Source: a virus
DNA length: 64,000 nt
IMG/VR virus record: IMGVR_UViG_3300035698_035303
Location: 1-64,000 of that record
Direction: 5' to 3' (one strand)
Positions 31,300 to 63,159 of the stretch are shown here, one piece after another; within the stretch, counting starts at the first letter, position 1, and each line of letters starts with the position of its first letter. The notes beneath the pieces were generated by a model. The model saw nothing but the letters and a program-made list of their open reading frames with translations, did no database searches and was not told the origin of the DNA. A program made the translations under genes and the position numbers.

Positions 31300-31332
31300 T
31301 AATGCAAAGGAACCAACAACATGCACAGGGTA

Positions 31333-31426: not shown

Positions 31427-31445
31427 GTGTCTCGAAGGAGGAGAA

Positions 31446-35310: not shown

Positions 35311-35655
35311 ATGGCCGATAAAGATATTTATGATCTTATGGAAAAATTTAAAAAGAATCCTGGTCCTTTGACTGATATGGATGAATCTATTCATATTCAA
35401 GGTGAAATAAATCGTTCAACTTGGGTTGGCGAAGAAGAAATTGTTGAGGTAGTTCCTGCATCACGTATTTCTGTTTTTGCTATTGATGACCGTGATCAAG
35501 GTCCATGGGTTATTATGGATTCATATACTAATGCTTTTTGGGGTGGAAAAGAGTGGGTAAAGGGGAGAAATAACGCTAAAGAGTTTAAGTCCGAAAGCGC
35601 TGCAAATCGTGCTAGTGGAGCCGCAAGAAGAAAAGAACCGTCAATGGCAAGGTAG
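35311..35655 (+). CDS. Hypothetical protein (114 aa)
   Basis: A 114-aa protein starting MADKDIYDLMEKFKKNPGPL. The N-terminal 25 residues end in DMDE|S, again of the prohead-protease type. The central part (ISVFAIDDRDQGPWVIMDSY) is beta-like and the C-terminus is basic. TAGGAG precedes the ATG. No family is recognised. It lies just before the large terminase and may be a head-internal or packaging accessory protein. Confidence 0.5.
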   Translation: MADKDIYDLMEKFKKNPGPLTDMDESIHIQGEINRSTWVGEEEIVEVVPASRISVFAIDDRDQGPWVIMDSYTNAFWGGKEWVKGRNNAKEFKSESAANRASGAARRKEPSMAR

Positions 35656-35667: not shown

Positions 35668-37383
35668 ATGGTTAGAACGTCGAAACAAAAAGCAGAGATA
35701 GCTAAATGTAAGAAGAATGCTTCTTACTTTATTGAGAACTACTGCAAGATTCGGCACCCTTTGCATGGTGTTATACCATTTCATATGCATTCGTTTCAAA
35801 CGAAATTAGCTGATGATTTCATGAATTATCAGAATCATATAATTAACAAATCAAGGCAGACGGGAATCTCGACTATAACAGCATGTTACAGCCTTTGGAT
35901 GCTTCAATTTCAAATGCATAAAGAAATAACTGTTATATCAAGAAAAGACGAAGAGGCAATGGCATTTATTGATAAAGTTAGATTAGCTTGGGAACACTTA
36001 CCAGATTGGATGAGAGTACCTAAAGGCGGGTCTAACAATATGCATAATTTTCAATTAGTTACACATAGTAAAATTAAAGCCGAAGCCAAATCAAAATCCG
36101 CAGGTCGTTCAGCATCATTAAATATGTTGATACTTGATGAGGCTGCACATATTGACGTTATTAGAGATATTTGGAAATCAGCTATGCCAACATTAAGTCG
36201 TGGTCATGGTAAATGCATTATGATTTCGACCCCAGACGGAATGGGTAACTTGTTCCACGAGACAGTTGAGAAAGCAAAGCTAGAAGGTACGCCAGAATGG
36301 AATGAATTTAGATTCACATTTTGTCATTGGACAGACGTCCCTGAGTATGATGAGGCGTGGTATAAAAAAGAACGACCAAAATGGAATGATCGTGACTGGG
36401 CACAAGAATATGAAGGTGACTTCCTTGGTTCCGGTAATACAGTTATCCCAGCAGATATGTTAAAGATTTTAGAAAAGAAGCTTAAACCACCAATCGGTTA
36501 TTTGAATCTTGATATGAAGCCATGTTCAAATGGTGAAGTTTGGGTTTGGTCTCTGCCAGCTCCTAAACATCAATATATTATTGGTGCTGATACTGCATCC
36601 GGTGATGGAAAAGATTTTTGCGCTGCCCTTGTAATGGACATGAATACAGGCGAACAAGTAGCTGAATTCAAGAATAAAACAGTATCGCCAAAACGATTCG
36701 CAAAATTACTTTATGACCTTGCGAATTATTATAATGAAGCTTATGTAATCCCAGAAAACAATAATATGGGTATTCTTACATGCGAAGAGATTTATAACGT
36801 GCTTGGGTATTGGAATATATATTTAGAGCGTAATCCCCAGACCAATAAGGTCAATTATAGGAAGCCTGGGTTTAACACAACTGCAAAAACTAGGCCAATT
36901 CTTATTGAAGGACTTAAAACATTATTTGACCCTAATGGTATGTGGACTATTCGTAGTCAACGATTTTTCTTGGAAGCTACAACGTTTACATGGCGTGGTG
37001 GCAAAGCTCAAGCAGAAAACAACTATAATGATGACTTAATGATATCTGGTGGGCTGATAGGTGGAAATATTGATTCCATTTTGTTAGATAATCCCCTTGC
37101 CGAGATAAAGCAAGAAGACGAGGGGTCAGAAACAGATATATGGGGTAATCAAGTAGAGTTTAATATGGCTGATACAAATCCGCCAGATGCTGCTATGTTT
37201 TCAATCGGTGATGATGATAATGATTCTAATAATGAACCAAGTCCTGAACCTAATGATTTTGAAGTTGACCCGTTTAATCCTCAACATCAAAGGTTACTTG
37301 GATTTGAAAATACAAACAAAATAAAAGATCAAATGACAGAATTTAGTTGGTTATACAATCAACAAAATAATAGGGGAAATTAA
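35668..37383 (+). CDS. Terminase large subunit, gp17-like
   Basis: A 571-aa packaging motor and nuclease. The N-terminal ATPase shows KSRQTGIST (61-69) in the Walker A position, LNMLILDE (151-158) as Walker B with D157/E158, and MISTP (185-189) as the coupling motif. The C-terminal RuvC-like nuclease shows GADTASGDGKDF with D308, VIPENN with E363, and NYNDD with D455/D456. The usual P-loop Lys of T4 gp17 (SRQLGKT) is Ile here, so this is a deviant Walker A in which K61 may substitute. The C-terminal 90 aa are acidic and variable. It cuts concatemers and pumps DNA through the portal encoded downstream. Confidence 0.9.
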   Translation: MVRTSKQKAEIAKCKKNASYFIENYCKIRHPLHGVIPFHMHSFQTKLADDFMNYQNHIINKSRQTGISTITACYSLWMLQFQMHKEITVISRKDEEAMAFIDKVRLAWEHLPDWMRVPKGGSNNMHNFQLVTHSKIKAEAKSKSAGRSASLNMLILDEAAHIDVIRDIWKSAMPTLSRGHGKCIMISTPDGMGNLFHETVEKAKLEGTPEWNEFRFTFCHWTDVPEYDEAWYKKERPKWNDRDWAQEYEGDFLGSGNTVIPADMLKILEKKLKPPIGYLNLDMKPCSNGEVWVWSLPAPKHQYIIGADTASGDGKDFCAALVMDMNTGEQVAEFKNKTVSPKRFAKLLYDLANYYNEAYVIPENNNMGILTCEEIYNVLGYWNIYLERNPQTNKVNYRKPGFNTTAKTRPILIEGLKTLFDPNGMWTIRSQRFFLEATTFTWRGGKAQAENNYNDDLMISGGLIGGNIDSILLDNPLAEIKQEDEGSETDIWGNQVEFNMADTNPPDAAMFSIGDDDNDSNNEPSPEPNDFEVDPFNPQHQRLLGFENTNKIKDQMTEFSWLYNQQNNRGN

Positions 37384-37385: not shown

Positions 37386-40300
37386 ATGGATTACGGACGT
37401 AAAACAAATTTGAATGATGCTGCTATTAACAGAGGTCTATCAGAAAAAATTGATCAAGATATTATGGACCGTAGCGCAAATATTCTTGAAACAGTTGACA
37501 GAAGTAAGCTTACTGTATCTGATATATTGGGGAGAACGAATACTGAACCCCCAGTTGACGAAGGGACGACTCTTCGTAAGATAGTTAAAGAGCTAAGAGG
37601 TAAGAAACATCGCAAATGGGTATCTAAAAACGAAATACGCGAGTATATGCGCGAGAAAATGCCTGACGATGAGACTTTTGATGCTTTTTGGAGCAGTGCA
37701 AAACAATCGAATGCAGGACATCGTAATTATGAATTTGGGAAACGCGGAGACGATGAGATAGTAACAAACGGCAAAAAACGTTATGCCGAGTCAATAGATG
37801 ACCCTAATTGTCATTTTCTACCAGATGACTTAAAATTTAGTCATGGTGACAATCAGGACCTTACTAAGCTTATGGAAGATAACCCAAATATGGGTCTAGG
37901 CTTTTTAGAGGGGTTCGGTGAAAAACCAGTCTTTGCCAAAATTGAGGAAAACAAACGTTTCTCATCCGATGCTGATGTTAACATGATTCTTGAGGGAGTT
38001 GATGAAGGTGCGTATACAAATAAGCAATGGACATTAGCTGCAAAAATGATAGCAGATGCTGCAAAAAATATTGTTAGAGCCTCTGATTGGGTTCAAGTAA
38101 AAGCAGCCGTAAATAAAATTGATGAACCAACCGGAGTTTATAGACATCCCAAACGTCCTAAAGGTTTAGCAAAAGCAATTGACGCTGTTTATAAAATGTC
38201 TAAAGATGGCAAAGATTGGCAGCAAATGAAAGCAAGCGTTATTAAATCATGGAAAGAATTAGACACTGCATATGCAAAAGCTGCTGAGAGAAGTCTTGCT
38301 TTAGAAGGTGATGCCCCTGGCGTTCCTGACGGAACTGGCCCAAGAAGCAAAAAAGGGAATTGCCCAATGAGCGAGTCTGGGCTTTCTTATGAGACATTAG
38401 CCAAAAACATTAAAAACGGTAATATAAAATCTGGAGCTACTATATTTGCTGCGGATAAAGAGTTTAAGGTCAAATCAGCTAGTGTTCAAGGCGATACTGT
38501 TTACATTGAAACAGACACACGTGTTTTTAAAGTTAAAAACGAAAAAGATGGTGATTCTGTTATTACAAAGTTTGATATGTCTGCTAATGAGTCTATAAAT
38601 GAATCAATTTCAGTTGTTGACGAAGCTGGGCTTTCTTATGAGACATTAGCTAAAAATATTAAAAATGATAATATAAAATCTGGAGCCACTATATTTGCTG
38701 GAGATAAAGAATTTAAAGTTAAATCTGCTAGCGTTCAAGGTGATACAGTTTATATTGAAACAGATAAACGTGTTTTTAAAATCAAAAATGAAAAGGATGG
38801 CGATTCTGTTATTACAAAGTTTGATATGGGCGTTGATGAGGCCAAATTTGAATACAATATTCCTCACTTAAATAAAGCCAAAACCCGTAAAGGGCAGATT
38901 ATTCAGGTTGTAACAAAATCTCCTAAAGTCTTTCATTATTGGACTGGTAAAGCGTGGACTAAATCTTTGGATGGAGCCAAAGAGCTTGTATCCGGGCCAG
39001 AAGCTAAAAGTGATCTTAAAAAAGCTCTCGCAAGTTGGGATGTATCAACAGTAGAGAACGTTGATGAATATATAAAGCTTGGTCCTAAAGACAAACGGGT
39101 TATTAAAGACTTCATGGCAGGCAAATCTAGTTCCAGCAAGAATTTAGATACAGACGGCAAAAAACTTGATGGTGTTTGGATGGGTGGAAATAAATTAGCA
39201 ACTCGTGGTTCTGATAAGATGATTTCATTTAGCGATACAGGCGGTAAATCGGCACAGATTATTAAGAATTTTGCAAAGAAACTCAACCCTGCCGTTATTC
39301 ATGAAGATATTGATGAAGCAAATCGTGTGAACACTGACGCATATATGCGCTCCCACGGTAAAAAACCCAAAGGTCGTGGCAGATGGTTGTTCTTCTTCGG
39401 TGAAAAAGCTCACAAAGACTGGCCAAAAAAGACTGACGGATCATTTGCTTCCTCTAACACCACCTTCGGTGATGCTGTAAAGCAAGCAAAAATCGAAGTT
39501 AAAAAACGTGGTTTAAAAGATATTGAAATTATTGTTGGTGAGTCCACAACAGAGAGCGTTGAAGACGCTATTGAATCCTTATCATTATCTTTATTTGGTG
39601 AGGATAGGAATCGCCCTTTTGACCGAATTGTGGATGAGGCCAAAGGTCTTGTTTACACAGTATCATTTGATAGTGATCGTGATTTAGAAAAATTTGAAAA
39701 GAAATATAAGAGTCCTATTGGTGGTGTAACGTGGAAGAAAATTACCACTAAGCCCAGGATTACCCAATCAATCAATGTTTTTTACAAAGGTGGACAGGCT
39801 GGGAAAGAAGAAGGAAGCAAATTCATAGGAAAGATAAAAGACGAATTCACCAGAGTTTTTGTTACTTCCAATAAACGTTCTGATGCTAAGGATGAAGCTA
39901 TTGAATCTTTATCATTATCTTTGTTTGGAGAAGCTAAATATGAGCATCCTCCATCAAATATACATAAGGAACCATTTGGTACTCAGGTTTACTTCGCGAT
40001 TAAACCTCTGGAGAAAACTCTTCCTGAGAAAGATGCATACGCCAGTATAACTAATCAGGATCTTTCGACTAGGAACCCAGAAATTCAAATCGCCTTCTAC
40101 TCTAAGAAGGGTAGGGATTTATTGGGGTGGATTACCTTCAAGGTGTCTTTCTCTGGTAAGAATGTAAAAACCAAAGTTCTTGACACACATAAGTACGGCA
40201 AGGATAACCAAAGGGCATTAACTAAAGAAGTTGAAGACGCCTTGAAAAAAGCTAAGGTTCAACCGTTATCCGAAGACGTTGATGAAGCTGGGTTATTAAG

Positions 40301-41027
40301 AGCTCCCGCACATGTTAAACAAATTCTTGTACAATTAGCTAAAAAAATTAAAGGCGTTAAAATTACGAAATCCAGTCGTGGTAATTACATGTTTGGTGGT
40401 AATAATCTAGCTAAAGGTCCTGCTGAAAAAATTGTTAAAGCCTTGAAAGATTTAGGCAAAACAGGTAGAGTAGCAGAAATAGATGGTAAATTTTTTGCTC
40501 AAACTTCCCTTGGCGAATCTGTAGATGAAGGCAAGAAGCCTACAGGCGCAAAACTTGAAGCTGCAAAAAGATTATTAGCAAGATTCAAAAAAGAAAAAGG
40601 TGATACTGCTGAAGCATCAGCAGACTTTATTAATGCATATATTAAGGGCGATGAAAAGTTTATGCGTCGTATTTTATATGCCCCAGGTAACTCTCGTAGA
40701 GGTGCTTTATATGCCCAGGAACGATTAAGAATGATGACCGAGGATATAAACGATTTACTTGAAGAATTAATGATAATGTGCGAAGATATAGATGATATTT
40801 ATACTATTGAATTTCCAAAAAGTAATCAAGATTCTGACTACTCAAAGATTATAGACTTACTTACAAAACACCCACAAGCAAAAAAGCTTGGCAAAAAAGC
40901 TTGGATCAAAGCTGGCAAGCTTCTTATTAAAGGATTTGATGTCAAAGGATTAACTAGTCTTATTAAAAATCCAGGTATTAATTTAATGAGTAAAATAAAT
41001 CAGACAAAAATAACTTTGTTAAGTTAA
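37386..41027 (+). CDS. Putative internal-head polyprotein with multiple protease sites
   Basis: A 1213-aa, lysine-rich protein made of separate, mostly short alpha/beta segments joined by acidic linkers of the type [V/I]-D-E followed by A or G: after E59, E207, E413, E485, E644, E751, E967 and E1048. Further candidates are LFGE at E739 and E849, and NVDE at E561. This matches the T4 gp21 prohead-protease rule (hydrophobic-x-Glu, then small residue). Two segments are near-identical 67-aa copies, and one 13-aa linker is duplicated. I see no enzyme motif. By analogy with T4 internal proteins it may be packed in the prohead and cut into about ten peptides; it lies between terminase and portal genes. 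A plain multidomain structural protein is the alternative. Confidence 0.55.
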   Translation: MDYGRKTNLNDAAINRGLSEKIDQDIMDRSANILETVDRSKLTVSDILGRTNTEPPVDEGTTLRKIVKELRGKKHRKWVSKNEIREYMREKMPDDETFDAFWSSAKQSNAGHRNYEFGKRGDDEIVTNGKKRYAESIDDPNCHFLPDDLKFSHGDNQDLTKLMEDNPNMGLGFLEGFGEKPVFAKIEENKRFSSDADVNMILEGVDEGAYTNKQWTLAAKMIADAAKNIVRASDWVQVKAAVNKIDEPTGVYRHPKRPKGLAKAIDAVYKMSKDGKDWQQMKASVIKSWKELDTAYAKAAERSLALEGDAPGVPDGTGPRSKKGNCPMSESGLSYETLAKNIKNGNIKSGATIFAADKEFKVKSASVQGDTVYIETDTRVFKVKNEKDGDSVITKFDMSANESINESISVVDEAGLSYETLAKNIKNDNIKSGATIFAGDKEFKVKSASVQGDTVYIETDKRVFKIKNEKDGDSVITKFDMGVDEAKFEYNIPHLNKAKTRKGQIIQVVTKSPKVFHYWTGKAWTKSLDGAKELVSGPEAKSDLKKALASWDVSTVENVDEYIKLGPKDKRVIKDFMAGKSSSSKNLDTDGKKLDGVWMGGNKLATRGSDKMISFSDTGGKSAQIIKNFAKKLNPAVIHEDIDEANRVNTDAYMRSHGKKPKGRGRWLFFFGEKAHKDWPKKTDGSFASSNTTFGDAVKQAKIEVKKRGLKDIEIIVGESTTESVEDAIESLSLSLFGEDRNRPFDRIVDEAKGLVYTVSFDSDRDLEKFEKKYKSPIGGVTWKKITTKPRITQSINVFYKGGQAGKEEGSKFIGKIKDEFTRVFVTSNKRSDAKDEAIESLSLSLFGEAKYEHPPSNIHKEPFGTQVYFAIKPLEKTLPEKDAYASITNQDLSTRNPEIQIAFYSKKGRDLLGWITFKVSFSGKNVKTKVLDTHKYGKDNQRALTKEVEDALKKAKVQPLSEDVDEAGLLRAPAHVKQILVQLAKKIKGVKITKSSRGNYMFGGNNLAKGPAEKIVKALKDLGKTGRVAEIDGKFFAQTSLGESVDEGKKPTGAKLEAAKRLLARFKKEKGDTAEASADFINAYIKGDEKFMRRILYAPGNSRRGALYAQERLRMMTEDINDLLEELMIMCEDIDDIYTIEFPKSNQDSDYSKIIDLLTKHPQAKKLGKKAWIKAGKLLIKGFDVKGLTSLIKNPGINLMSKINQTKITLLS
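38379..38828 (+). repeat. Tandem 67-aa domain duplication in the polyprotein
   Basis: Two in-frame copies of a 201-base unit, 38379-38579 and 38628-38828, both encoding GLSYETLAKNIKN...VITKFDM with few changes. The 48-base spacer encodes a linker with two candidate sites (SINE|S and VVDE|A), and the second copy is followed by GVDE|A. Many differences are at third codon positions, so the copies have been kept under protein-level selection. Confidence 0.85.
39564..39932 (+). repeat. Duplicated linker motif in the polyprotein
   Basis: The 13-residue sequence [D/E]AIESLSLSLFGE is encoded at 39564-39602 and again at 39894-39932. Each copy ends in a Glu that could be a protease site (FGE|D and FGE|A). 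The copies flank one segment of about 98 aa, as expected for a repeated inter-domain processing linker. Confidence 0.8.
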
Positions 41028-41475: not shown

Positions 41476-43087
41476 TACCTTTACTGACAATATTACTTTA
41501 GACCCTGAATTTCTTTGGTTGCCAAAACCAACAGGGGAACTAGGGAGCCTTGCAGGTAAAGTTGGTAATTTCATGCCTTATTGTAATATAAAATTTGCTG
41601 ATCTTCCTTTGTTTCATATTCCCAATGAACATCTTATTGATATGTCATTAGGACTTGGTATAGGTAGTGGCGGTGGTGTTGGTGGAACAACAATAAATTT
41701 GACATTACTTGACCCAACGAACTTTATTCTTGAGCGTGTTATGCGTTATGCAATAATGAGAAACAACTATGGTGGTTGGGCATTCTTATTAGTTCAATTT
41801 GGGTGGACAGACGGAATAACAAATTATGGAATGCAACCTGATGAATTCCTCAAATTTTCTGTTAGCAATTGGGTCCAAACTGTTGATACAGGGGTAACAA
41901 GATATACACTTACAGGGGTGTCTCAAGGACAAATGTTGCTTCGCAATGTTAGAGTCCCTGATACTATAGCTCTGCCTTTTGTGGATTCTGTACCAGTAAG
42001 TGGAAAAGCTTATAAAACTCAAACTGGGTATGTTTTAGATGAAATGCTAAATAGACTCATTCCCAACTTGCCTAATAAAGTAAAAGTTATTGGTAATATA
42101 AGTGATAGAGGGATAGCAGATATCGCTGGTTTTTTCAATCAAGCTGGTAATCAACGTGGCATAACTCTGTTTAAAGAATTAGCAAATAAATACTTAACAA
42201 CAACAAGCGGTGGTTATTTTCAATGGTGTTTTGTTAGCCATGTTAATGAAAAATCTGCGGTTAAAGATGCAAAGAGTAGTGACGAAGTAACTGCCCCAGT
42301 TAATAATGGTGTTTACATATTATTTTATGACCCAAGTTATGTTGACGACTTACGAAAACAAAATGCAATTGTTCGTAACTCATCAATGCCATCTGAATAT
42401 TCAATTTACAAATCTTGTGAGGCGTTAATTAGATGGCCAAATCATATGGGTTATGCTTTAGAACTACAAATTGGTGGAAATACCGATTGGCTTGGAAATG
42501 CATTTGATTTAACACGAACATCTATTACGGCTGCAGGACAAGTAAGTCCAGGTCCCACTGTTAAAACAAAAACCCCAACAAACGAATCAGTCATTCAAGA
42601 TGGCGCATTAAATACTATCGATAGAAGTCATAATGCAGATCAGATGGGTGGCGGTGCAGGGCAAACCACAACAGGTAAAGCATCAAACATGGGTACTATC
42701 AACGCAGCAAAAGGTCAAAGGTCACAGGCTTTTGCTAATCAAATGACCCTGACAACTAAAGGGGAACCATGGTTTGTTAATCAAGCAATGTTCGCTGGTA
42801 TGCATTTTGGCGTTTTGTTTGATAATAAAACAAATTTATCGAGGGTTATGGTCCCTTACGCAGCAAATGACCCAGACCAATTAAAAAATTCAATTCCGAT
42901 GTTACGATCATTAACCCCTGAAAATTTTCAATTCTTAATGGATGGAGGCTTTTTTGACCCTGAACAATTCCCAAGCCCCTTAACAGGAACATGGGCAATC
43001 CAAGGTGTTACTCAACGGATCTCTGGCGGTACATTTACGACGTCATTTCAATTACTAAGGGACTTAGAACAGGAGACAAGCATATGA
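41468..43087 (+). CDS. Putative baseplate hub / tail protein
   Basis: A 539-aa protein. Near residues 75-125 it has a beta-rich domain ending LLVQFGWTDG, a pattern seen in hub-type tail proteins, where a strand with F-G-[WY] follows membrane-distal loops. The last 25 residues (GTWAIQGVTQRISGGTFTTS) resemble the end of gpD/gp27-like hub proteins. A Gly-rich insertion (LGIGSGGGVGGTT) lies near residue 75, and a low-complexity linker at 375-420. In T4 the hub gene is far from the portal; here it overlaps the portal start as ATGA. The hub assignment is tentative; tail structural protein is safer. Confidence 0.5.
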   Translation: MTDTFTDNITLDPEFLWLPKPTGELGSLAGKVGNFMPYCNIKFADLPLFHIPNEHLIDMSLGLGIGSGGGVGGTTINLTLLDPTNFILERVMRYAIMRNNYGGWAFLLVQFGWTDGITNYGMQPDEFLKFSVSNWVQTVDTGVTRYTLTGVSQGQMLLRNVRVPDTIALPFVDSVPVSGKAYKTQTGYVLDEMLNRLIPNLPNKVKVIGNISDRGIADIAGFFNQAGNQRGITLFKELANKYLTTTSGGYFQWCFVSHVNEKSAVKDAKSSDEVTAPVNNGVYILFYDPSYVDDLRKQNAIVRNSSMPSEYSIYKSCEALIRWPNHMGYALELQIGGNTDWLGNAFDLTRTSITAAGQVSPGPTVKTKTPTNESVIQDGALNTIDRSHNADQMGGGAGQTTTGKASNMGTINAAKGQRSQAFANQMTLTTKGEPWFVNQAMFAGMHFGVLFDNKTNLSRVMVPYAANDPDQLKNSIPMLRSLTPENFQFLMDGGFFDPEQFPSPLTGTWAIQGVTQRISGGTFTTSFQLLRDLEQETSI

Positions 43088-46000
43088 GCTTGCTACCAAC
43101 ATTTTTTAATGATATCCAACAAAATATTGATAAGTTTGGCTATGTCGGACATGACGATATCATTTCAGCTCCTTTAACACCAAAAGACAATTATCATGCA
43201 CCTATTCCAGTTCATGATGAATCAGATTGGTATCAAAACTTTATGTTTGTTGGGGAAGATCGTCTCCAAAGATATACTGATTTTGTTGGGATGGACGCAC
43301 ATCCTCTTATGTCATCCGCTCTTGACATTTATGCTGAAGAGTCATCACAAAAAGACGCATGGGGAAATGTTCTTCAAATTCATACAGATGACCAAGTCAT
43401 TAAAGAAGAATTAGAACATTTATTGTTTAAACGTTTAAATATCAACCATAATCTTTTCCGTATTGTAAGAGAAACATGTAAATATGGTGATAAATATCAA
43501 TACCTTGTTTTAGAGAAAAACCGAAAAGGCGTTTTATTCTTAAAAGATATGCCTGTTCAATCAGTTTGGCGTTTGGAATGGCAAGGAAAACTACTTGCAT
43601 TTGTACAACAGACACCAGCAGGTATTACTCCCCCACTTGACCCATTTAGTGTCGTTCATTGGAGAATTGCTTTAAATCAAGAACGCTACAAACCTTATGG
43701 AACATCTATATTTGATCCATGTCGTCGCCATTACCGTCAATTAGTTTTGATGGAAGACGCTATGGTCGTATATCGAATTACTAGAGCTCCGGAAAGAAGA
43801 GTGTTCTTTGTTAATTGTGGACGTTTGCCAACTCCTAAAGCCGAAGAATATATGAAGAAAATTACAGGCAGATTTCGTAAACGTTCTATTGTTAACCCAG
43901 TTAATGGTGAAATTGACTGGAGATCGAATCCGCTTGCCCCTGATGAAGATTTTTACATTCCCATAAGAGATGGGAATGACGGAACAAGGATTGAACAACT
44001 TGCAGGAGCCCAAAATCTTGGTGAAGTTGACGATGTTGTTTGGTTTAAAGACCAAATTCTGGCTTACCTCAAAATCCCCCGTGTTTATTTACAAGATACA
44101 GATGGGGGTTCGTCTGAACGCAGAGAAAATCTGTGTTTAGACGGCGATACTAAAATTGCACTTTTAGATGGGACTTCGCCTACTATCAAGGAACTTTCAG
44201 AAAAAGATGAAGATTTTTGGGTATATTCCATAAATGAGCATAATAAAGTTGTTCCTGGATTGGCGTCGGGGGTTAAGTTAACAAGGTCAAATACAGAAGT
44301 TGTTGAGGTTGAACTTGATAATGGTGAAAAGGTTATATCAACACCTGATCATCCATTTATGAAACGTGATGGAACATATTGTAAAGCTGAAGACCTCAAA
44401 TCAGGTGAATCATTAATGCCTTTATATAGAAAAATATCTGGTGTTGATGACGATAGTTGTCTAAAGGGATATGAAAAGGTTTACAATCCAAAATCGGGTA
44501 AATGGCCATTTACCCATAGGATGGTTGAGGAATCATTACATAACCAAATCCCAAAGGATTGTGTTGTTCATCATTGTAATTTCAATAAGCGTGACAATAG
44601 CCCAAATAATTTAAAAGTAATGAATACTCAAGATCATGCAAAATATCATATTGAATTAGCATCTAAAAACATAACACCTGAAGTAATAGCTAAAAGAAAT
44701 AAATCAATTAAAAGATTTTATAATACAGAAGAAGGAAAACGTAAAATTGAATTAACTCGATTGGCAGGGGTAGAGAATCAACAAAAATGGTTAAAATCTA
44801 AAAAACATAGAGATTTTAAAAGTAAATTACGTAAACAAAGATATGTTCCTGGTGATGCATTTTATGATTTTCAACATTCAGATAAGAATGTAGAGTTGGG
44901 TAGAGAACGAGGACGACTAAATGTCATCAACGGTGCTATTTCAAAGATGATTCAGAAAGCGGCGGATGCAAACAGGCGTAATGACATAACCTTTGACAAA
45001 GTTGTTGCAGCTGCTGAAAGTGGGGGTTATAGCCGGAATACCCTCAGAGATCATCTAGGATGTTCTATTGGTCTGATTATTGCTGCAATCAAAAGTAATG
45101 GATTGACTTATAAAGAATTCCACAGGATTTACATAGCTCTACCAAGGATGAACTATCTTATAAAAATTGCGAAGGGCTGTCACTGTCAAAATATGGTTGA
45201 TCTTATAAAATGGTCGAAGTTTTCAAAACCAGAAATTATAAGAAGTATTAATAGTTATGGAATGAAAGTTCCTGAATTTATGAAAAAGTATTGTGACTTC
45301 ACTCCAATGGATATATCCGAACAATGTAAGAACCATAAAGTTGTGGCTGTACGGAAATTAGAACAAAAAAGAGATACTTACTGTATGACCGTAAAAAAGT
45401 ATCATAATTTTGCCCTAAGTAGCGGAATATACGTTAGAAATTCGATGCAAGATATTCGTTTTGCGCGAACAATAGAGAGAGTTCAAACGGAGATCCTTGA
45501 GGGGATAACTAAGATTTGTATTATCCATTTAATGCTTCGTGGTTATAATAAAACTCGTGCGTTAAATTTTGCAATTCAAACAACATCACCCTCATACGCG
45601 CACGAACGTGCGGAACAAGAAGTTGAAAGCAGCAGATTAAGTCTTGCAGATTCATATTTTGAAACGGGTTTCCCTCGTGAGTATACATGGGAACGAATTC
45701 TCAAACTTACTAAAAGAGAAACACGTAAATTACAGAAAAAACGTAGACAAGAAGATTTAATTTTAGCTGAGAGAGAAGCACAAGTCGAAGCTTATAGGAC
45801 AAAAGCGACTGAATTTTATGAGGAGTTGTACTCAAATAAATGGGGTCTTGTTAAAGATACTGACGGGGATGATGATCAACAAACTAAAGATACCCATAAG
45901 TCAGGGGATGTCCCAAAGACATCCCAAGAACCTTATAGCGGTCATGGCAAAGGTAAAGAAATTGAACCAGCTAGAGAACAACCAGATGTAACAGCGCCAC

Positions 46001-46524
46001 CAAAAAGTGAAACAGCGCAAAAAGAGACTATTAACCAACTTATTAAAAAAGATGGGGATGAATCCGATCAAGAACAAATAATAATTGATCAGCCAGCTAA
46101 CCCTACTAGGCTAAAGCAATCTTCTACACCTGATAAAGATAAAAAAGTAAGAACTAAGGAACAAATAGAAGAAGAATTCAAAGTTATGCGTTCAAAATTT
46201 CTTGGAGATGATGGTGAGGAATTACGCGAGGATATGTTGTTTAATGGAATCGACAATAAAACATCGACAATACATCGAAATGGCATTAATCAAAATTTAG
46301 AAGATACTGCAAGAAGGCAAAGAGGACCAAAGTCTAATTGCCATATTGAGCTACTTGCCCACGGTGAACTAGCTCCATTGAATTTAGCAGGTGGTAAATT
46401 AGCCATTACAACTAAAGGACCGTTAATGAGATCTATTCAGGCATTTCGCCAATTACAAAATAGCCAACGAAATGAGTGGTTATTAGGGACTGGGGAAAAT
46501 GATGATAAAGAGATTAAACAGTAA
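43084..46524 (+). CDS. Portal protein, gp20-like, interrupted by an intein
   Basis: A 1146-aa precursor starting at the ATG at 43084 (CAGGAG upstream, ATGA overlap); in-frame sequence before it lies in the previous gene. Extein residues 1-350 and 787-1146 (710 aa joined) match T4-type portals: SALDIYAEESSQKDAWGNVL, YKPYGTSIFDPCRRHYRQL, and the junction SSERRENL | SMQDIRFARTIERVQTEILE. The portal forms the head-vertex ring through which terminase packs DNA and to which the neck binds. The C-terminal 170 aa are charged and not typical of T4. An intein occupies residues 351-786. Confidence 0.85.
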   Translation: MSLLPTFFNDIQQNIDKFGYVGHDDIISAPLTPKDNYHAPIPVHDESDWYQNFMFVGEDRLQRYTDFVGMDAHPLMSSALDIYAEESSQKDAWGNVLQIHTDDQVIKEELEHLLFKRLNINHNLFRIVRETCKYGDKYQYLVLEKNRKGVLFLKDMPVQSVWRLEWQGKLLAFVQQTPAGITPPLDPFSVVHWRIALNQERYKPYGTSIFDPCRRHYRQLVLMEDAMVVYRITRAPERRVFFVNCGRLPTPKAEEYMKKITGRFRKRSIVNPVNGEIDWRSNPLAPDEDFYIPIRDGNDGTRIEQLAGAQNLGEVDDVVWFKDQILAYLKIPRVYLQDTDGGSSERRENLCLDGDTKIALLDGTSPTIKELSEKDEDFWVYSINEHNKVVPGLASGVKLTRSNTEVVEVELDNGEKVISTPDHPFMKRDGTYCKAEDLKSGESLMPLYRKISGVDDDSCLKGYEKVYNPKSGKWPFTHRMVEESLHNQIPKDCVVHHCNFNKRDNSPNNLKVMNTQDHAKYHIELASKNITPEVIAKRNKSIKRFYNTEEGKRKIELTRLAGVENQQKWLKSKKHRDFKSKLRKQRYVPGDAFYDFQHSDKNVELGRERGRLNVINGAISKMIQKAADANRRNDITFDKVVAAAESGGYSRNTLRDHLGCSIGLIIAAIKSNGLTYKEFHRIYIALPRMNYLIKIAKGCHCQNMVDLIKWSKFSKPEIIRSINSYGMKVPEFMKKYCDFTPMDISEQCKNHKVVAVRKLEQKRDTYCMTVKKYHNFALSSGIYVRNSMQDIRFARTIERVQTEILEGITKICIIHLMLRGYNKTRALNFAIQTTSPSYAHERAEQEVESSRLSLADSYFETGFPREYTWERILKLTKRETRKLQKKRRQEDLILAEREAQVEAYRTKATEFYEELYSNKWGLVKDTDGDDDQQTKDTHKSGDVPKTSQEPYSGHGKGKEIEPAREQPDVTAPPKSETAQKETINQLIKKDGDESDQEQIIIDQPANPTRLKQSSTPDKDKKVRTKEQIEEEFKVMRSKFLGDDGEELREDMLFNGIDNKTSTIHRNGINQNLEDTARRQRGPKSNCHIELLAHGELAPLNLAGGKLAITTKGPLMRSIQAFRQLQNSQRNEWLLGTGENDDKEIKQ
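44134..45441 (+). mobile_element. Intein with HNH homing endonuclease in the portal gene
   Basis: A 436-aa in-frame insertion. It starts with Cys in CLDGDTKIALLDG (block A), has STPDHPF with Thr70 and His73 (block B), and ends KKYHNFALSSGIYVRN (blocks F/G), followed by Ser as the +1 extein residue. The residue before the terminal Asn is Arg, where most inteins have His. Residues about 127-175 form an HNH endonuclease (VVHHCNFNKRDNSPNNLKV, then H168 and H172), followed by helical DNA-binding-like segments. It should splice itself out of the portal protein and copy itself into intein-free portal alleles at a highly conserved site. Confidence 0.88.
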
Positions 46525-48753: not shown

Positions 48754-49599
48754 ATGACAGAACAGCAAAGCATTATTGATTTATTAACGGAAACTCGTGG
48801 GGTTCTATCAGAACTTCACAGGTTAGGTCTCCCAGGGCTTGACCCAAGATTACCACCTGAAATATTGGAACATAATCTTTATACAGACCCAAAAGATCAT
48901 ATTCTCTTATTAGAAGAAACTATGGTCCTTGCTCCGTATTTTGATGTTGAAGTCAATGAGTCAATTGACCCTTATGAACAGGCTATGATATTGATGGAGG
49001 CTAACGGGGATGGACGGCTTCTTATGCGTGGGGTTTTCCAACGCGCTGGGAAGAAAAATCAAAATGGTAGAATATATTCCAACGAACTTTTGCAAAGAGA
49101 AGTTAAAAGGTTGCAAGATTCTATCGATGATAACAGACTTGGTGGTGAATTAGACCATCCACAAAGTGCTAAAATTCGCGTCCCTGTCACAAGTCATTTA
49201 ATAACTAAACTATGGATACCTAACAATTCAGATGAGGTTTATGGGGAGTTAACTCCTACTCACAATTCATCTGGTAGGGATTTGTTTAATTTAATAACTA
49301 AAGACAAAATGAGATTAGGCGTTTCAAGTCGTGGTACTGGAACTCTCAAAGAGACAGACAACGGGCTTCTTGTACAGCCTAATTATAATATGATTACTTT
49401 TGATATTGTTGCGGACCCATCAACTCACGGAGCTTTTCCAACTGAAGTTAACAACAGTAACAAAAAAATCGACAAAAAATCAACAACTGAAGAAAAACAA
49501 GATAATAATGATTCCAGTGTAGAATTACTGGAAATAACAACAGAATTAATTACCCGGATGAAAAACGTATTCGGTCAAAGGCCAGGAGATAAAAAATGA
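48754..49599 (+). CDS. Prohead maturation protease, gp21-like
   Basis: A 281-aa serine protease of the T4 gp21 type that removes the scaffold and trims capsid and internal proteins. The family core is clear: RGVFQRAGKKNQNGRIY, then GGELDHP with His135, SHLITKLW, then LGVSSRGTGTL with Ser191/Ser192, and FDIVADPSTHGAF. The N-terminus has candidate self-cleavage sites at EVNE|S (E69) and LME|A (E82), which would free the core domain. The C-terminal 50 aa are Lys/Asn/Gln-rich and probably removed. It overlaps the scaffold gene as ATGA, as fits their shared role. It is the enzyme expected to act on the leaders described further on. Confidence 0.88.
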   Translation: MTEQQSIIDLLTETRGVLSELHRLGLPGLDPRLPPEILEHNLYTDPKDHILLLEETMVLAPYFDVEVNESIDPYEQAMILMEANGDGRLLMRGVFQRAGKKNQNGRIYSNELLQREVKRLQDSIDDNRLGGELDHPQSAKIRVPVTSHLITKLWIPNNSDEVYGELTPTHNSSGRDLFNLITKDKMRLGVSSRGTGTLKETDNGLLVQPNYNMITFDIVADPSTHGAFPTEVNNSNKKIDKKSTTEEKQDNNDSSVELLEITTELITRMKNVFGQRPGDKK

Positions 49600-50855
49600 A
49601 AAAAGTCTTAGAGAATGCACTTGGAGACGTTATAAACGTTCTTGGAGAAGAAAAAGCTTCACTAGTCGCCTTTGTTAGTGAAAAGGTCAAAGAAGCTGAA
49701 GAAAAAGTCGAAAAGATGAAAGGTGACTATGACGATAAAGTTGCTGAATTAAAAAGTGATAAAGAAAAGGCAGTCAAAGAGGCTGAAGATGAAGATGATG
49801 ACGATAAAGTCAAAGAGGCTGAAGAAGAATTTGAAAAGAAAATTGAAAAAGTTAAAGAGTCTTTTGATGCAAAAATTGCTGAAATGAAAGACGACTTTGA
49901 AAATAAAATTAAAGATGAAGCTGACGATGATGACGATGATGACGATGATGACGATGATGACGATGAAGAAACTGACGAAGGTGAACTACCTCCGGCTTTG
50001 AAAAAAGCAATAGAGTTAAAGAAAGCCATCACAAAAAGTAAAAATGAAGCTGACGATGATGACGATGAAGAAACTGATGAAGGTGAATTGCCACCAGCTT
50101 TGAAAAAAGCAATAGCGAAAAAGAAAGCCGAATCAGGAGACGATGAATGTAAAGAATGTGATGACAAAGAAGAAAAAATTGAAAAGCTTGAAAAAGAGGC
50201 TGTAGAAAAAGAAGACGAAATTGAAAAGATTAAAGAGGGATTAGCAGAAAAGGTTAATTCATTTTTAACAAACATCCTCCCTCGTCTACACAACATTGTT
50301 AAAGAAGAAAAAACATTATCTCCAGACAATATGAATGCTGAGAATATTCTCGAAAGCATTAAAACATTGGTTGGAGAAGGTAATTTACCATCCTCGAGCC
50401 TTTCTGAGGAAGTTAATAAAGATGAGTTCAGTGAAAAAATTGCTGAATTTGAAACTAAGTTCGAAGAACTCACAGAAACACAAGAAGATCTCAAGGGGAG
50501 ATTAAGGCGTAAATCTAACAAGCTTAATGAGGGCTTGACTGATAACGCACAACTCAATGCGCAGTTGAAAGTGTGGGAGCTTTGTGCAGATGATCCGGAT
50601 CGTGATTTCATTATGACACGACTTGCCGAATGCGCAACCGTTGATGATGTGGAAGAACAGTTCCCGATTCTCAAGGAAAAAATTAGACGTGATGCTGAAG
50701 AGGATCTTATTGAAGAATTTGGGGACCCCAATTTTGAGGGACCTGGTTCTAACATCAATGAGGAAGTTCCAACAAAGCCAAGTGATTTATCACCTTTGAA
50801 TGAAAGTGACAAAAATAGATTGGCTGAACTTGCTGGGATTATGCCTATTAAGTAA
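49596..50855 (+). CDS. Major scaffold / prohead core protein, gp22-like
   Basis: A 419-aa, extremely acidic coiled-coil protein with the order and character of T4 gp22, which forms the core inside the prohead and is degraded by the protease. Residues 20-105 are Glu/Lys coiled coil. Residues 107-180 hold two tandem copies of an Asp-run followed by EETDEGELPPALKKAI. The C-terminal 100 residues are more globular. Candidate protease sites are VLGE|E (E18), TLVGE|G and others. It is flanked by protease and major capsid genes. The long opposite-strand open frame here is only a consequence of Asp codons. Confidence 0.85.
   Translation: MKKVLENALGDVINVLGEEKASLVAFVSEKVKEAEEKVEKMKGDYDDKVAELKSDKEKAVKEAEDEDDDDKVKEAEEEFEKKIEKVKESFDAKIAEMKDDFENKIKDEADDDDDDDDDDDDDDEETDEGELPPALKKAIELKKAITKSKNEADDDDDEETDEGELPPALKKAIAKKKAESGDDECKECDDKEEKIEKLEKEAVEKEDEIEKIKEGLAEKVNSFLTNILPRLHNIVKEEKTLSPDNMNAENILESIKTLVGEGNLPSSSLSEEVNKDEFSEKIAEFETKFEELTETQEDLKGRLRRKSNKLNEGLTDNAQLNAQLKVWELCADDPDRDFIMTRLAECATVDDVEEQFPILKEKIRRDAEEDLIEEFGDPNFEGPGSNINEEVPTKPSDLSPLNESDKNRLAELAGIMPIK
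49917..50130 (+). repeat. Tandem acidic repeat with variable Asp tract in scaffold gene
   Basis: Two in-frame copies (from 49917 and from 50046) encode EADDDD...EETDEGELPPALKKAI. They differ mainly in the length of a GAT/GAC run: about 14 Asp codons in the first and 5 in the second. Such trinucleotide runs can change length by slippage without breaking the frame. Confidence 0.85.
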
Positions 50856-50897: not shown

Positions 50898-52739
50898 ATG
50901 AGTAACACAAACGCATATCGCCAGGTTGGTCGTAGACTAATCGAAAGATGGTATCCTCTATTAGAGGGTCTCAGGGGCGAAGAAAACATCATTAACATGG
51001 CAATACTCTTGGAAAATGAGTGGCGTGAGGGTGGAAACCTTCTCCCAGAATCTGACCAAATTATTGCTGAGTTCACCGCTTCAACTTTGGCTGGTCCTTC
51101 TGGACAGACCCCACAGGTCGCAACATTCAGACATTACCTAATGCCTTTGATTCGAAGAGTATATCCTAACCTATTTACTAACCAACTTGTTGGCGTTCAG
51201 CCAATGACTGGTCCATCAGCTCAGATTTTCTATTTGAAATACTTTTATTCTGGTATCTCAAACATGCAAGACCCTTGGGGAACAACTCCAACAAGTAAGG
51301 GTGGAACTGCTCCTGGTACTGAGTATGGTAACTTTAGTGGAGATTCATGGTTCGTCGATCCATATTACTCCATGCAAACAGTTCGTCGTGAACCTATAGC
51401 TGCATTTGCAGGATCAGATTTTTCTGGTGCGCCAGCCACAGTAACTCATGATATGGTTGCTGCTAACGGTCAGCCTCCTGTTTTTGATAATACTTCAAAA
51501 TGGTATTTCCTTGCAGCAGATGCTAATACATACGCAGTTGCTACAACTGTAACACTTATTGAGTTAACTGGCTTTGTAAATGGTGTAACCCCAGGTTCCG
51601 CTATTACAGCTACATCAATTGCTACTATCAAAGGTACAACCGCATTTACTAATACAGTAACAGGTTGGATTGATAGAACAGGTGCTTCTAGCGCAAATCA
51701 GTGGAACATTGTTACAAGTAATGTTGGTTCCCATGATTTCTTCTTATCCGCCACAGAATCTGCTGCAGCTGTAACTGCTGGATCTGATTACTTGGGTGTT
51801 AATACTGTTACTTATGACTTCAATATGGAAAACAGACCAGAAATGCCTGAACTTTCCTTAGAAATCGCAAGCGATACAGTAGGCGTTCAGACTCGTAAAT
51901 TGCGCACCGTATGGTCCGTTGAGTCTAGCCAAGATATGAAAGCTATGCATCAAATTGATGCTGAAAAAGAGCTTATTAGTCTTCTAGCTGCTGAACTAGC
52001 TGCTGAGATTGATCGTGAAACTTTGAATAACCTTATCATGAATGCTGGACAAAGACGCGATTACAACTATTCCCATCCTGGAATCGTTGGTGGTTTTGCT
52101 CAAGCAAATGGTGCTGGTTACTTGAACTGGGATCAGCAAGCAAGTATTCCTGCTGCCGGTGCTGGAGCATGGTTCCCCGTACCAGGATCTGGTAATTACG
52201 ATGATCGTAACAAATCATTGATGTATCAAACAATTGAAATGGCTAATGACATTTATCGCCAATCGCTTCGTGGTTCTGCTAACTGGATTGTTACTTCCCC
52301 AAGTATCGCCAGCAAGTTTGAAGCAATGAGTGAATTCGAATCCACTGCAACTTCTGAGACTCTATACAATATTGGTATTCAGGAAAGTGGCATCTTGGCA
52401 AGTAAGTTTAAGTTGATTAAAGACCCTCTATTCCCTGAAGATTTAATTCTCATGGGTTATAAAGGCCCTTCATTTATGGACAGTGGTTACTTCTATTGCC
52501 CATACGTACCAATTCAGCTTACTCCAACAGTTGTTGACCCACGTACCTTCAATCCTGTAAAAGGTGTAATGACTCGTTACGGCAAATTGATGGTTGAAAA
52601 TGGGGAGAGAATGTACGGACTTATTAAGGTTGACAATCTTAATTCAGTTGGTAGTTCAACTCCTGCAGGGTTCCCAATCCAGACCAGCTCGACTGTAAGT
52701 GGCAGCGATATGATCAGTGGCGATACGAACCTAGTATAA
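50898..52739 (+). CDS. Major capsid protein, gp23-like
   Basis: A 613-aa T4-type major capsid protein with HK97 fold. The family stretch is clear around residues 80-115: FRHYLMPLIRRVYPNLFTNQ, LVGVQPMTGPSAQIFYLK. Further matches are ENRPEMPELSLEIASDTVGV with TRKLRTVWSVE, and PSIASKFEAM near the C-terminus. The N-terminal 58 residues are helical and end QIIAE|F, the likely protease cut (T4 gp23 loses 65 residues). Residues about 190-300 hold a beta-rich insertion. The gene has a good ribosome-binding site (TTAGGAG) and ends at a strong hairpin terminator, fitting very high expression. Confidence 0.92.
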   Translation: MSNTNAYRQVGRRLIERWYPLLEGLRGEENIINMAILLENEWREGGNLLPESDQIIAEFTASTLAGPSGQTPQVATFRHYLMPLIRRVYPNLFTNQLVGVQPMTGPSAQIFYLKYFYSGISNMQDPWGTTPTSKGGTAPGTEYGNFSGDSWFVDPYYSMQTVRREPIAAFAGSDFSGAPATVTHDMVAANGQPPVFDNTSKWYFLAADANTYAVATTVTLIELTGFVNGVTPGSAITATSIATIKGTTAFTNTVTGWIDRTGASSANQWNIVTSNVGSHDFFLSATESAAAVTAGSDYLGVNTVTYDFNMENRPEMPELSLEIASDTVGVQTRKLRTVWSVESSQDMKAMHQIDAEKELISLLAAELAAEIDRETLNNLIMNAGQRRDYNYSHPGIVGGFAQANGAGYLNWDQQASIPAAGAGAWFPVPGSGNYDDRNKSLMYQTIEMANDIYRQSLRGSANWIVTSPSIASKFEAMSEFESTATSETLYNIGIQESGILASKFKLIKDPLFPEDLILMGYKGPSFMDSGYFYCPYVPIQLTPTVVDPRTFNPVKGVMTRYGKLMVENGERMYGLIKVDNLNSVGSSTPAGFPIQTSSTVSGSDMISGDTNLV

Positions 52740-55219: not shown

Positions 55220-55711
55220 ATGAAAACTAGTAAAAAATTGAATGAAATTATTGACAGATTTGAGAAAGAACTTGATGAGTTTATTGGAATTAACGAGGCG
55301 CAGGAGTTAACTCCTACTATAATGAAAAAAATAGCCACAAATCTTAGCAAAGTAATAAAAGATCAGAATCCCTGGCGTATTGCAAAATTTAAGGTTACTA
55401 AGGATGGGGATACTTTTAAGGCTGTATCTGACGATTATGCAGATAAATACAATAAAATGTTTGTGGACAAAGAAATAGCTAAATACCCATCAAATGCCGA
55501 ATATTTAATGCGACAAAAAAAGTATTATCATGAAACCAAAAAAGTCATTCGCAAAGGTGATGAACGTAATTATTCTTATGTAGTTGACTTAGTACAAGTA
55601 ATTGTAAATAAAAACGGGACCCATCGGGATAAATCAGCATTTATTGTATTTGATTCAAAAGGAAACATGAAATCTGTTAAGCAATATAGCCCTGAGCCTT
55701 TTGGGGTTTAA
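55220..55711 (+). CDS. Putative capsid-cargo protein with long leader (163 aa)
   Basis: A 163-aa protein. The leader (26 aa) starts MKTSKKLNEIIDRFEKELDE and ends FIGINE|A, a prohead-protease-type site. It is the long variant of the leader family and has the same length as that of the next gene. The payload is a lysine-rich alpha/beta protein (ATNLSKVIKDQNPWRIAKFK) similar in layout to the payload at 55742, so the two are probably paralogues. No enzyme motif. Likely packed into the head and trimmed there. Confidence 0.55.
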   Translation: MKTSKKLNEIIDRFEKELDEFIGINEAQELTPTIMKKIATNLSKVIKDQNPWRIAKFKVTKDGDTFKAVSDDYADKYNKMFVDKEIAKYPSNAEYLMRQKKYYHETKKVIRKGDERNYSYVVDLVQVIVNKNGTHRDKSAFIVFDSKGNMKSVKQYSPEPFGV

Positions 55712-55741
55712 TATCAATTAAATTTATTTAAAGGATAAATT

Positions 55742-56203
55742 ATGAAAAACAACATAACATTAGATGAAATTATTGATAGGTTTGGGGCTGATGTTGGCGA
55801 TAACTTTAAAGTTAATGAAGCGAACGAGCCATATAATACCACCGACCCAAAAGCAGTAGTAACAAATATGCCCCTTAGTGAAATGGCTAAAAATCTTTCA
55901 AAGACAGTCTCAAAAATGATTGGTATGCCTGTGACGTTCAAATTAACTGTTAAGAATAATATTATTAACATAGAGTCAAACGACTTGGCACCAAAAGTTA
56001 AACCCAAATTATTTAAACGGTTAATAATTAAGAGTGACGGTGGTAGTGTTAGGCCTCACGAACAAGACAAAGTATTATGCTATCTTGCCCAGTTGTATTA
56101 TCGGTGGGATCAATACGGTGGCGGTTCTAATGGGTTAAACATTGGTCTTTTTCAGATTAATCAAGAGGGATTCATTATTGGTTATAGAGAAGATTTAAAG
56201 TAA
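55742..56203 (+). CDS. Putative capsid-cargo protein with long leader (153 aa)
   Basis: A 153-aa protein. The 26-residue leader starts MKNNITLDEIIDRFGADVGD and ends FKVNE|A. The payload begins with a helix (MAKNLSKTVSKM), then alternating strands (VTFKLTVKNNIINIES), as in the gene before it. No known domain or catalytic residues. AAAGGA precedes the ATG. Its function inside the virion or after injection is unknown. Confidence 0.55.
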   Translation: MKNNITLDEIIDRFGADVGDNFKVNEANEPYNTTDPKAVVTNMPLSEMAKNLSKTVSKMIGMPVTFKLTVKNNIINIESNDLAPKVKPKLFKRLIIKSDGGSVRPHEQDKVLCYLAQLYYRWDQYGGGSNGLNIGLFQINQEGFIIGYREDLK

Positions 56204-56215
56204 AAGGACATTAAA

Positions 56216-56491
56216 ATGAAAGACAATAGAACATTAAACGAAGTGACTGAAAATTTTGGGATGAGTGAAGGCGTGGACAAGATTTCTATACCTGGTACGG
56301 ATTTTGTTTTTACTATTCCTCTGTTTTATAAGGATAAACCAGCTAAAAAGAAATCTGGGCATGTCCAACATAAATCGGGTCATCCACGCGGCGAATGGTT
56401 TGTTAACAAAAAAGGTAAAGTGACTTTCTTAGATGATTGGGATAAAGAGAAGAAAATGGCTGCATTCATAACGAAGGAAATAGGGCTATGA
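56216..56491 (+). CDS. Putative capsid-cargo protein with standard leader (91 aa)
   Basis: A 91-aa protein with leader MKDNRTLNEVTENFGMSE|G. The payload is a small basic beta-rich protein with a His/Lys/Gly segment (KKKSGHVQHKSGHPRGEWFV) that could bind metal or nucleic acid. The stop overlaps the ferritin gene as ATGA, so the two should be made together. No family is recognised. Confidence 0.55.
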   Translation: MKDNRTLNEVTENFGMSEGVDKISIPGTDFVFTIPLFYKDKPAKKKSGHVQHKSGHPRGEWFVNKKGKVTFLDDWDKEKKMAAFITKEIGL

Positions 56492-57108
56492 AAGACAATA
56501 GAGACCTAAACGAAATTGCTGGTAATTTTGGAATCAATGAATCTGAATCTGAAATTGATACCGATGAATGCGAAATTGATACCGATGATTTGTCTGAATC
56601 AATTATAGAGGAAGCTTCAACAACTCCAATGCCTGATGACGTATTTAAAGCTTTAAATGAACAGGTTAAGAATGAGTTTGAAGCGTTTTATGCATATTAC
56701 GGTATGGCTAATTCTATGGACTCTATTGGATTTAAGGGTATGGCTTGTTGGCTTCGTAAGTCAGCAAAAGAGGAATTAAACCATGCATATAAAGTTAATG
56801 ATTATATCCTTGAGCGTGGCAAAGATGTGAAGCTAATTCCTATTCAACCGTCAAAAGAAAAATGGAATACCCCAAAAGCAGCTTTTGAGTCAGCAAACAA
56901 GCATGAAATTAGTGTTACTGCTAATTACAATAACTTGAAAAAATTAGCTGAAAGTGGCGGCGATCATCAAACTTGTGAATTCATTAACTTCTTCCTTCGT
57001 GAGCAAACAGAGGAAGAAGACAAAACTTTTGAAATTTGCCAAAAGCTTGATAAAGCTGGCAATGATCCAGCAGCTCTTTTGCAAATTGATAATCATCTTG
57101 GTTGTTAA
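56488..57108 (+). CDS. Ferritin with a capsid-cargo leader
   Basis: A 206-aa protein. Residues 52-204 match bacterial non-haem ferritin (FtnA type), which oxidises Fe(II) and stores it in a 24-subunit shell. All ferroxidase ligands align: E63 (LNEQVKNEFEAF), E96 and H99 (KSAKEELNHA), E140 (KHE), Q173 and E176 (REQTEEE). Unlike cellular ferritins it starts with the shared leader, MKDNRDLNEIAGNFGINE|S, followed by an acidic linker with a repeated EIDTD and a second candidate site, IIEE|A (after E42), just before the ferritin fold. I infer targeting to the prohead and trimming to mature ferritin. It overlaps both neighbours by one to four bases. Confidence 0.85.
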   Translation: MKDNRDLNEIAGNFGINESESEIDTDECEIDTDDLSESIIEEASTTPMPDDVFKALNEQVKNEFEAFYAYYGMANSMDSIGFKGMACWLRKSAKEELNHAYKVNDYILERGKDVKLIPIQPSKEKWNTPKAAFESANKHEISVTANYNNLKKLAESGGDHQTCEFINFFLREQTEEEDKTFEICQKLDKAGNDPAALLQIDNHLGC

Positions 57109-57440
57109 TGAAATTAACAAACATCATATTATACGAAGAGCCAGATGTTTGTATGCCCATGATGGAGTTTGTAGAAGTTTGGGTTGATGAAAATGGTGAT
57201 GAAATCAATGAAATATCACCTATAAGAAAACGTGTAAGAAAAAAACGTAAATGGAAAATAAGGTATTTTTGCCCTAAAGGGTATAGACATAAATCCCCAC
57301 CAGGCAAGCCCAGACAGAAGGGGAAATGCGTTAAAATACCTCCTGCGGTACTTGCTAAGATGAAAAGAAACGCACGCCGTGGGGCTAAAATACGAGGCAA
57401 AAAAGCAGCCAGAACAAGAAAAAGACTTTATGGTAAATGA
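57108..57440 (+). CDS. Putative capsid-cargo protein, strongly basic (110 aa)
   Basis: A 110-aa protein from the ATG at 57108 (TAATG overlap with ferritin). It begins MKLTNIILYE|E, a short second-type leader, then has an acidic piece ending EINE|I (E35). What follows is extremely basic: KRVRKKRKWK, CPKGYRHKSPPGKPRQKGKC, KRNARRGAKIRGKK. The Cys residues (in FCPKG and GKC) may bind metal. After cleavage this would be a DNA-binding peptide, like basic internal proteins packed with phage DNA. It sits directly behind ferritin. Confidence 0.55.
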   Translation: MKLTNIILYEEPDVCMPMMEFVEVWVDENGDEINEISPIRKRVRKKRKWKIRYFCPKGYRHKSPPGKPRQKGKCVKIPPAVLAKMKRNARRGAKIRGKKAARTRKRLYGK

Positions 57441-57452
57441 TAAGGATTAATT

Positions 57453-58142: not shown

Positions 58143-58146
58143 TATA

Positions 58147-58401: not shown

Positions 58402-58436
58402 CCGGAAATACAATAATATTCCTGTGGATAAAGAAC

Positions 58437-59464: not shown

Positions 59465-59473
59465 GGAGATAAT

Positions 59474-59947: not shown

Positions 59948-59956
59948 GGGCACAGA

Positions 59957-61002: not shown

Positions 61003-61013
61003 GAATATTATTA

Positions 61014-62360: not shown

Positions 62361-62397
62361 TTTAAAGTTACCCGCAATATTTAAAGAGGATAATATT

Positions 62398-62604: not shown

Positions 62605-62630
62605 TTTAATCTCCATTTTAAGGGGAGTTA

Positions 62631-63149: not shown

Positions 63150-63159
63150 GACTTGATAA

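Follow-up and report, generated by a model that had tools for sequence, protein, structure and literature searches.

The prohead protease of phage T4, gp21, cuts after L/I-x-E (PMC9026906), and among its substrates the internal head proteins IPI, IPII, IPIII and Alt combine an N-terminal targeting leader with small, mostly basic products (8, 10 and 20 kDa for the IPs; PMC9026906). The three internal proteins inhibit GmrSD Type IV restriction enzymes, each a different one (PMC12373910), and the internal head proteins as a group are poorly conserved between relatives (PMC9026906). The T4 core proteins gp22, gp67 and gp68 have several prohead-protease sites each and are reduced to small peptides, most of which leave the head. 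Several Glu sites per protein are also cut by the prohead protease in the head proteins of SPN3US and phiKZ that have long propeptides, but 13 of the 14 cuts mapped in SPN3US remove N-terminal propeptides and leave one mature product (PMC10052503). Many domains on one chain for delivery to the host are also found in the polyvalent proteins (Iyer et al., 2017; PMC5512222), which, where they are processed, are thought to rely on a peptidase domain of their own embedded in the chain. We found no description in the open-access literature of a tailed-phage internal-protein polyprotein that is cut by the prohead protease.

We propose that the gene described here encodes such a precursor. It lies in a stretch of 64,000 bases (herein the window) from a record of 64,638 bases that represents a fragment of an uncultivated T4-like phage. 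The head module of the window is of the T4 type, and the candidate polyprotein gene, which is preceded by a GGGGA-type ribosome-binding site, is located between the large terminase and the portal (Table 1). The gene order is large terminase, candidate polyprotein gene, two small or unknown genes and an intein-bearing portal, followed 3′ by a 631-aa gene, a 93-aa gene, the S77 protease, a scaffold-like gene and the major capsid gene. The corresponding order in T4 is 17-18-19-20-67-68-21-22-23, and hence the candidate gene occupies the place of the T4 tail sheath and tube genes. The candidate resembles the T4 internal head proteins in its small, mostly basic predicted products, of comparable size to the IPs, in their proposed release by a gp21-type protease and in its poorly conserved modules, and its leader-like N-terminus may correspond to their targeting leader. 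Each T4 internal protein, though, has a gene and a leader of its own, whereas the candidate has many modules on one chain with internal sites. Like the T4 core proteins it has multiple putative sites, but these are domain-spaced and the predicted fragments are the size of folded domains; the proposed release of many products also differs from the single mature product in SPN3US, and the head protease is proposed to act in trans rather than as an embedded domain of the polyvalent type. The most economical interpretation is a capsid-targeted precursor from which the head protease would free the modules, alongside the separately encoded leader proteins, and we regard it as a variation on T4-type internal head proteins.

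TABLE 1 Features of the window and of related loci (a slash marks a putative cleavage position; residue numbers are those of the candidate polyprotein).
Feature	Position	Strand	Details
Small gene with leader-like N-terminus (DIYDLMEKF...MDE/S)	35311..35655	+	Motif common with residues 486-556
Large terminase (gp17-like)	35668..37383	+	
Candidate cargo polyprotein P0001, 1213 aa	37386..41027	+	Single open ATG frame
N-terminal leader-like stretch, residues 1-20, NLNDAAINRGLSE/K at 8-21	37386..37445	+	Likeness to array leader
Second leader-like element LTVSDILGRTNTEPPVDE, residues 41-59, ends at site E59	37506..37562	+	V.D[LI]L form of G001 leaders
Conserved core domain, residues 61-130, predicted winged-helix fold	37566..37775	+	Sole part common to all known relatives
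Site VDE207/G, ILE203/G just upstream	38004..38006	+	
Duplicated module copy 1, residues 331-402, bounded by MSE330/S and ANE402/S	38376..38591	+	
Site VDE413/A between duplicated copies	38622..38624	+	Low-confidence linker 402-415
Duplicated module copy 2, residues 414-485, ends VDE485/A	38625..38840	+	
Module 486-556	38841..39053	+	YWTGKAW motif also in leader-like gene 35311-35655
Module 557-644 (KLGPKD...LDTDG), ends IDE644/A	39054..39317	+	Similar module after VNE300/S in separate G001 leader-bearing gene
Module 645-751, ends VDE751/A	39318..39638	+	First AIESLSLSLFGE at 39567-39602
Modules 752-849 and 850-967, ends VDE967/A	39639..40286	+	Second AIESLSLSLFGE between them at 39897-39932
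Module 968-1048, ends VDE1048/G	40287..40529	+	
C-terminal segment 1049-1213	40530..41024	+	
Portal (gp20-like), intein with HNH domain inside	42991..46524	+	
Prohead protease (gp21-like, Peptidase_S77)	48754..49599	+	Proposed processing enzyme, with intact GELDHP and GVSSRG active-site motifs
Scaffold-like protein, acidic and helical by sequence	49596..50855	+	Position before capsid gene
Major capsid protein (gp23-like)	50898..52739	+	E58 aligns with T4 gp23 cleavage residue E65
Array of about ten separate small leader genes	55220..63920	+	MKD[NI]RTLNE[VI]AE.FGINE/[AGS] or divergent form
Variable-length gene before protease, relatives	L040 5308-7635; L020 4610-6739; L083 5514-7682; L043 7333-8154		

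The original prediction placed [VI]DE[AG] sites after eight Glu residues, and exactly these eight are present, after Glu 59, 207, 413, 485, 644, 751, 967 and 1048, with adjacent sites 72–216 aa apart. Shuffled versions of the protein (20,000) contained a mean of 0.13 and a maximum of three such sites, and all other ORFs of the window taken together (∼50, 19,502 aa) contain six (Fisher p = 3e-7 versus the candidate). Both codons and flanks differ among the eight, so most of the sites do not stem from recent duplication. Additional probable sites, missed in the original prediction, are MSE330/S, ANE402/S and INE406/S, together with Glu 203, 640, 963 and 1044, each in tandem with and upstream of one of the eight, and in many linkers adjacent sites are paired, as in LSE963/DVDE967/A and LGE1044/SVDE1048/G of the candidate and LGE386/SIDE390/A of its relative in the phage G001 (below). 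The LFGE sequences that had also been put forward, at E739 and E849, are indeed present at the ends of a repeated linker, but they are weaker candidates because F at P3 violates the L/I-x-E rule. That linker, described as 13 aa, consists of 12 identical residues (AIESLSLSLFGE, residues 728–739 and 838–849), or of 13 if one D/E difference is allowed. The protein is Lys-rich overall, as claimed (162 K, pI 9.2), and its predicted fragments (7–24 kDa) are mostly basic, but fragments 1–59, 60–207 and 414–485 are predicted to be acidic.

The protease of the window matches Peptidase_S77 (E = 6.7e-14) and retains the gp21 motifs GELxHP and GVSSRG. When 67 related capsid proteins are aligned with T4 gp23, the column of E65 (E65/A66, the known gp23 cleavage site) contains Glu in 66 of them, the other having a gap, while P3 is dominated by V, L or I and P1′ is mostly A, S or Q. 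Given the conserved Glu of the capsid column and the retained gp21 motifs, the sites of the candidate polyprotein appear, by homology, to fit the rule of the protease family: the eight [VI]DE[AG] sites and the looser ones are of the L/I-x-E type if V is accepted at P3, as the capsid homologs indicate. The capsid protein of the window itself has IIAE58/F at the aligned site, making its P1′ (F rather than A, G or S) unusual. An alternative capsid site, LLPE51/S, was chosen at first because the G001 phage has LLDE/A there, but it was dropped as the alignment with T4 gp23 places the site seven residues later at E58.

The two 67-aa segments reported as near-duplicates (residues 332–398 and 415–481) proved to be just that, with 62 of 67 residues and 179 of 201 nucleotides identical. 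Their differences are mostly synonymous (dN 0.026, dS 0.64), which argues that both copies have been kept by selection as protein, and judged from these substitutions the duplicated modules are under purifying selection. The duplicated unit spans MSE330/S to ANE402/S and then VDE413/A to VDE485/A, so each copy directly follows one xxE and closes with another. AlphaFold, run without an alignment for this region, modeled each copy as a compact alpha/beta domain, most blocks having a pLDDT of about 80, and between the two a low-confidence linker, residues 402–415, that holds E406 and E413. The expectation that the sites fall in linkers is therefore clearly borne out for residues 325–485, but the rest of the model is too poor to support it. 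For residues 1–1200 the mean pLDDT is 51, and while seven of the eight sites are in stretches with pLDDT below 50, so is 54% of the chain, so this placement proves little and is not significant alone. Residues 54–131 are predicted to adopt a winged-helix arrangement, with likeness to BlaI, forkhead and linker-histone folds (Z of 6 to 7), and neither of the two models had a Foldseek match at E 0.001. A likeness of residues 858–966 to BPI-like and other folds had middling Z and was set aside as a common arrangement.

The suggestion that one precursor is an alternative to separate leader genes does not stand, as the same phage also carries about ten separate leader genes (Table 1), and it thus appears to use both arrangements. 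The genes of the array have a common leader, or a divergent form of it, and a different downstream part in each. The leaders have the look of capsid-targeting sequences with a protease site at the end, and the gene products are likely separate capsid-targeted proteins. The N-terminus of the candidate polyprotein, whose likeness to the array leader was spotted by eye before it was scored, ranks after nine array genes and above all other ORFs of the window (shuffle p = 0.0006); the stretch ends in LSE20/K, with Lys at P1′. Residues 41–59 resemble the G001 leaders (RTVDDLLREW...LDE/A), a form that is also found inside the long G001 protein. Similarity to leader-bearing genes extends to two of the modules. 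Module 557–644 aligns with a G001 leader-bearing gene after VNE300/S with a score of 67 (the best of 3000 shuffles reached 63), and part of module 486–556 recurs in the small leader-like gene of the window (3 of 10,000 shuffles). These matches are weak (phmmer E of 0.012 and 0.049) and are suggestive of the recurrence of both modules in separate leader-bearing genes.

A search with the capsid protein yielded 80 IMG/VR loci, only three of which contain the core of the candidate (residues ∼60–134; WV.K.[DE]I...F..[FY]W...KQ.N..HR.YEFG...EIV..G), in each case directly 3′ of the terminase. Core-domain patterns retrieved only G001, G002 and G003 across IMG/VR and nothing from genome contigs. In G001 (IMGVR_UViG_3300035698_027773) the syntenic protein is 1560 aa and has the same kind of sites between different modules, such that nearly all modules differ between the two proteins, while the counterpart in G002 and G003 is 257 aa and is the core alone, lacking both the sites and the tail. 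Two genomes, those of the window phage and G001, thus show the multi-module form, and its tail was therefore gained or lost within one clade. Among the 1519 ORFs of all fetched loci, which were surveyed for proteins with at least four [VIL][DN]E[AG] sites, domain-sized spacing is found only in the candidate (gaps of 72–216 aa) and its G001 counterpart (99–330 aa). The ten other proteins with at least four sites are 387–470 aa long with median gaps of 7–30 aa, and those whose genomic position was checked proved to be the scaffold-like ORF that directly precedes the capsid gene. A protein destined for shredding should have close sites and one that yields domains should have distant sites, as does the candidate. 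Relatives of the whole protein were not found in 50,697 phage records, PHROGs, Pfam and PDB sequences, or by peptide patterns in IMG/VR. Searches with modules 486–637, 645–720, 414–481 and 968–1041 gave nothing convincing (top hit a Rhizobium phage protein, E = 0.05), and module-alignment scans of IMG/VR gave no match. Module matches to proteins of the huge phage LR756508 were weak and unconvincing and were dropped.

These results bear on several ways of interpreting the protein. It might belong to the prohead core, as do T4 gp22, gp67 and gp68, and be shredded by the protease and mostly leave the head, its modules not being cargo, and it is true that gp21 cuts the T4 core proteins into multiple fragments (PMC9026906) and that the scaffolds of many relatives have several VDEA motifs. 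We nevertheless regard this as unlikely, because the close spacing of scaffold-type proteins is not seen in the candidate, because its predicted fragments are mostly basic and of 7–24 kDa with compact predicted domains, and because a separate scaffold gene exists in the window. An uncut, polyvalent-type multidomain virion protein that arose from fused leader genes, with the VDE motifs as leader relics, is quite unlikely. The vRNAP of phage N4 is packaged unprocessed and internal leader-like VDDLM stretches occur in the G001 protein, both of which count in favor of such a protein. So does the existence of polyvalent phage proteins with 2–15 domains (PMC5512222). Against it, the two proteins differ in most of their modules yet both retain sites that obey the protease rule, and most linkers of the candidate retain the site alone, without the rest of the leader. 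A Pfam search of the candidate gave no domain at a usable score, the polyvalent types that were sought including ART, MPTase, ParB-like nuclease and primase, and so it has no recognised peptidase or known polyvalent domain, although its modules may be distantly related to polyvalent effector domains. Finally, the one internal duplication and the one repeated linker could mean that VDE[AG] is a linker spread by duplication that has nothing to do with proteolysis, the protein itself being perhaps absent from the virion, but this is very improbable given the differing codons and flanks of the sites and the location of the gene within the head module in three lineages.

We consider it fairly probable, from the sequence comparisons, that the protein is a head-targeted precursor of small folded modules that is cut by the gp21-like protease. 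The computed observations in its support are the site pattern and its domain-sized spacing, the synteny and design of one relative, the absence of the tail in another, the site-bounded duplicates and the leader likeness, and the nearby gp21-type protease and the match of module borders to sites likewise point to a many-site precursor. Of the original prediction of a polyprotein of about ten internal-head proteins, the precursor with many sites between folded modules finds good support in the comparisons, while we infer the internal-head identity and the actual cutting, as we do packaging and virion location, ejection, function as cargo and any role in host takeover or counter-defence. In the proposed mechanism, the leader-like N-terminus and the conserved, predicted winged-helix domain would bring the chain into the prohead core. 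As the head matures, the neighboring gp21-like protease would cleave the [VIL]xE/[AGS] linkers on the C-terminal side of Glu. The head would then contain equal numbers of some eight to ten different proteins of 8–24 kDa, most of them basic, and the released modules would be ejected together with the DNA. Since IP1-3 of T4 each block a different GmrSD enzyme, a counter-defence role for some of the modules is plausible by analogy. We see about an even chance that this is a Gag-like polyprotein, in which one targeting domain would deliver exchangeable effector modules in equal number, the prohead protease would release them, and nearly the whole module set would be replaced from one related phage to another, with the targeting domain and the cleavage rule retained. 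If true, a single precursor, cleaved by the protease that matures the head, can supply a tailed phage with many head-borne proteins for delivery, and it would both fix the protein ratio and permit cassette-like swaps of modules. Such precursors could then be a compact source of new counter-defence proteins whose borders are readable from sequence.

Several other features of these loci were noted. The intein of the portal, with its HNH endonuclease domain, comprises residues about 390–817, and a related phage has a 572-aa prohead protease (L084 7131-8849) with an intein-like insert apparently just after the active-site motif GELDHPE. The scaffold-like proteins of T4-like relatives (L018 8499-9899; L063, L066, L069, L025) have tandem VDEA motifs 7–20 aa apart, as if designed for shredding by the protease. 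A leader-like motif, TV.D[LV]L, is C-terminal rather than N-terminal in the small gene at 41038-41475 of the window and in that at the same position in L006 (5065-5565). A huge-phage fragment (LR756508.1, L005 about 25724-31603) contains a row of genes that start with M[KR][LF]K.LL.E, possibly another leader family. In other relatives the gene directly 5′ of the protease has a common N-terminal domain but a total length of anywhere between about 244 and 775 aa, and is perhaps another precursor of variable length. The gene before the protease in G001 (L002 1784-6454) encodes 1556 aa, and the genes just 5′ of the protease in the window and G002 encode 631–655 aa.
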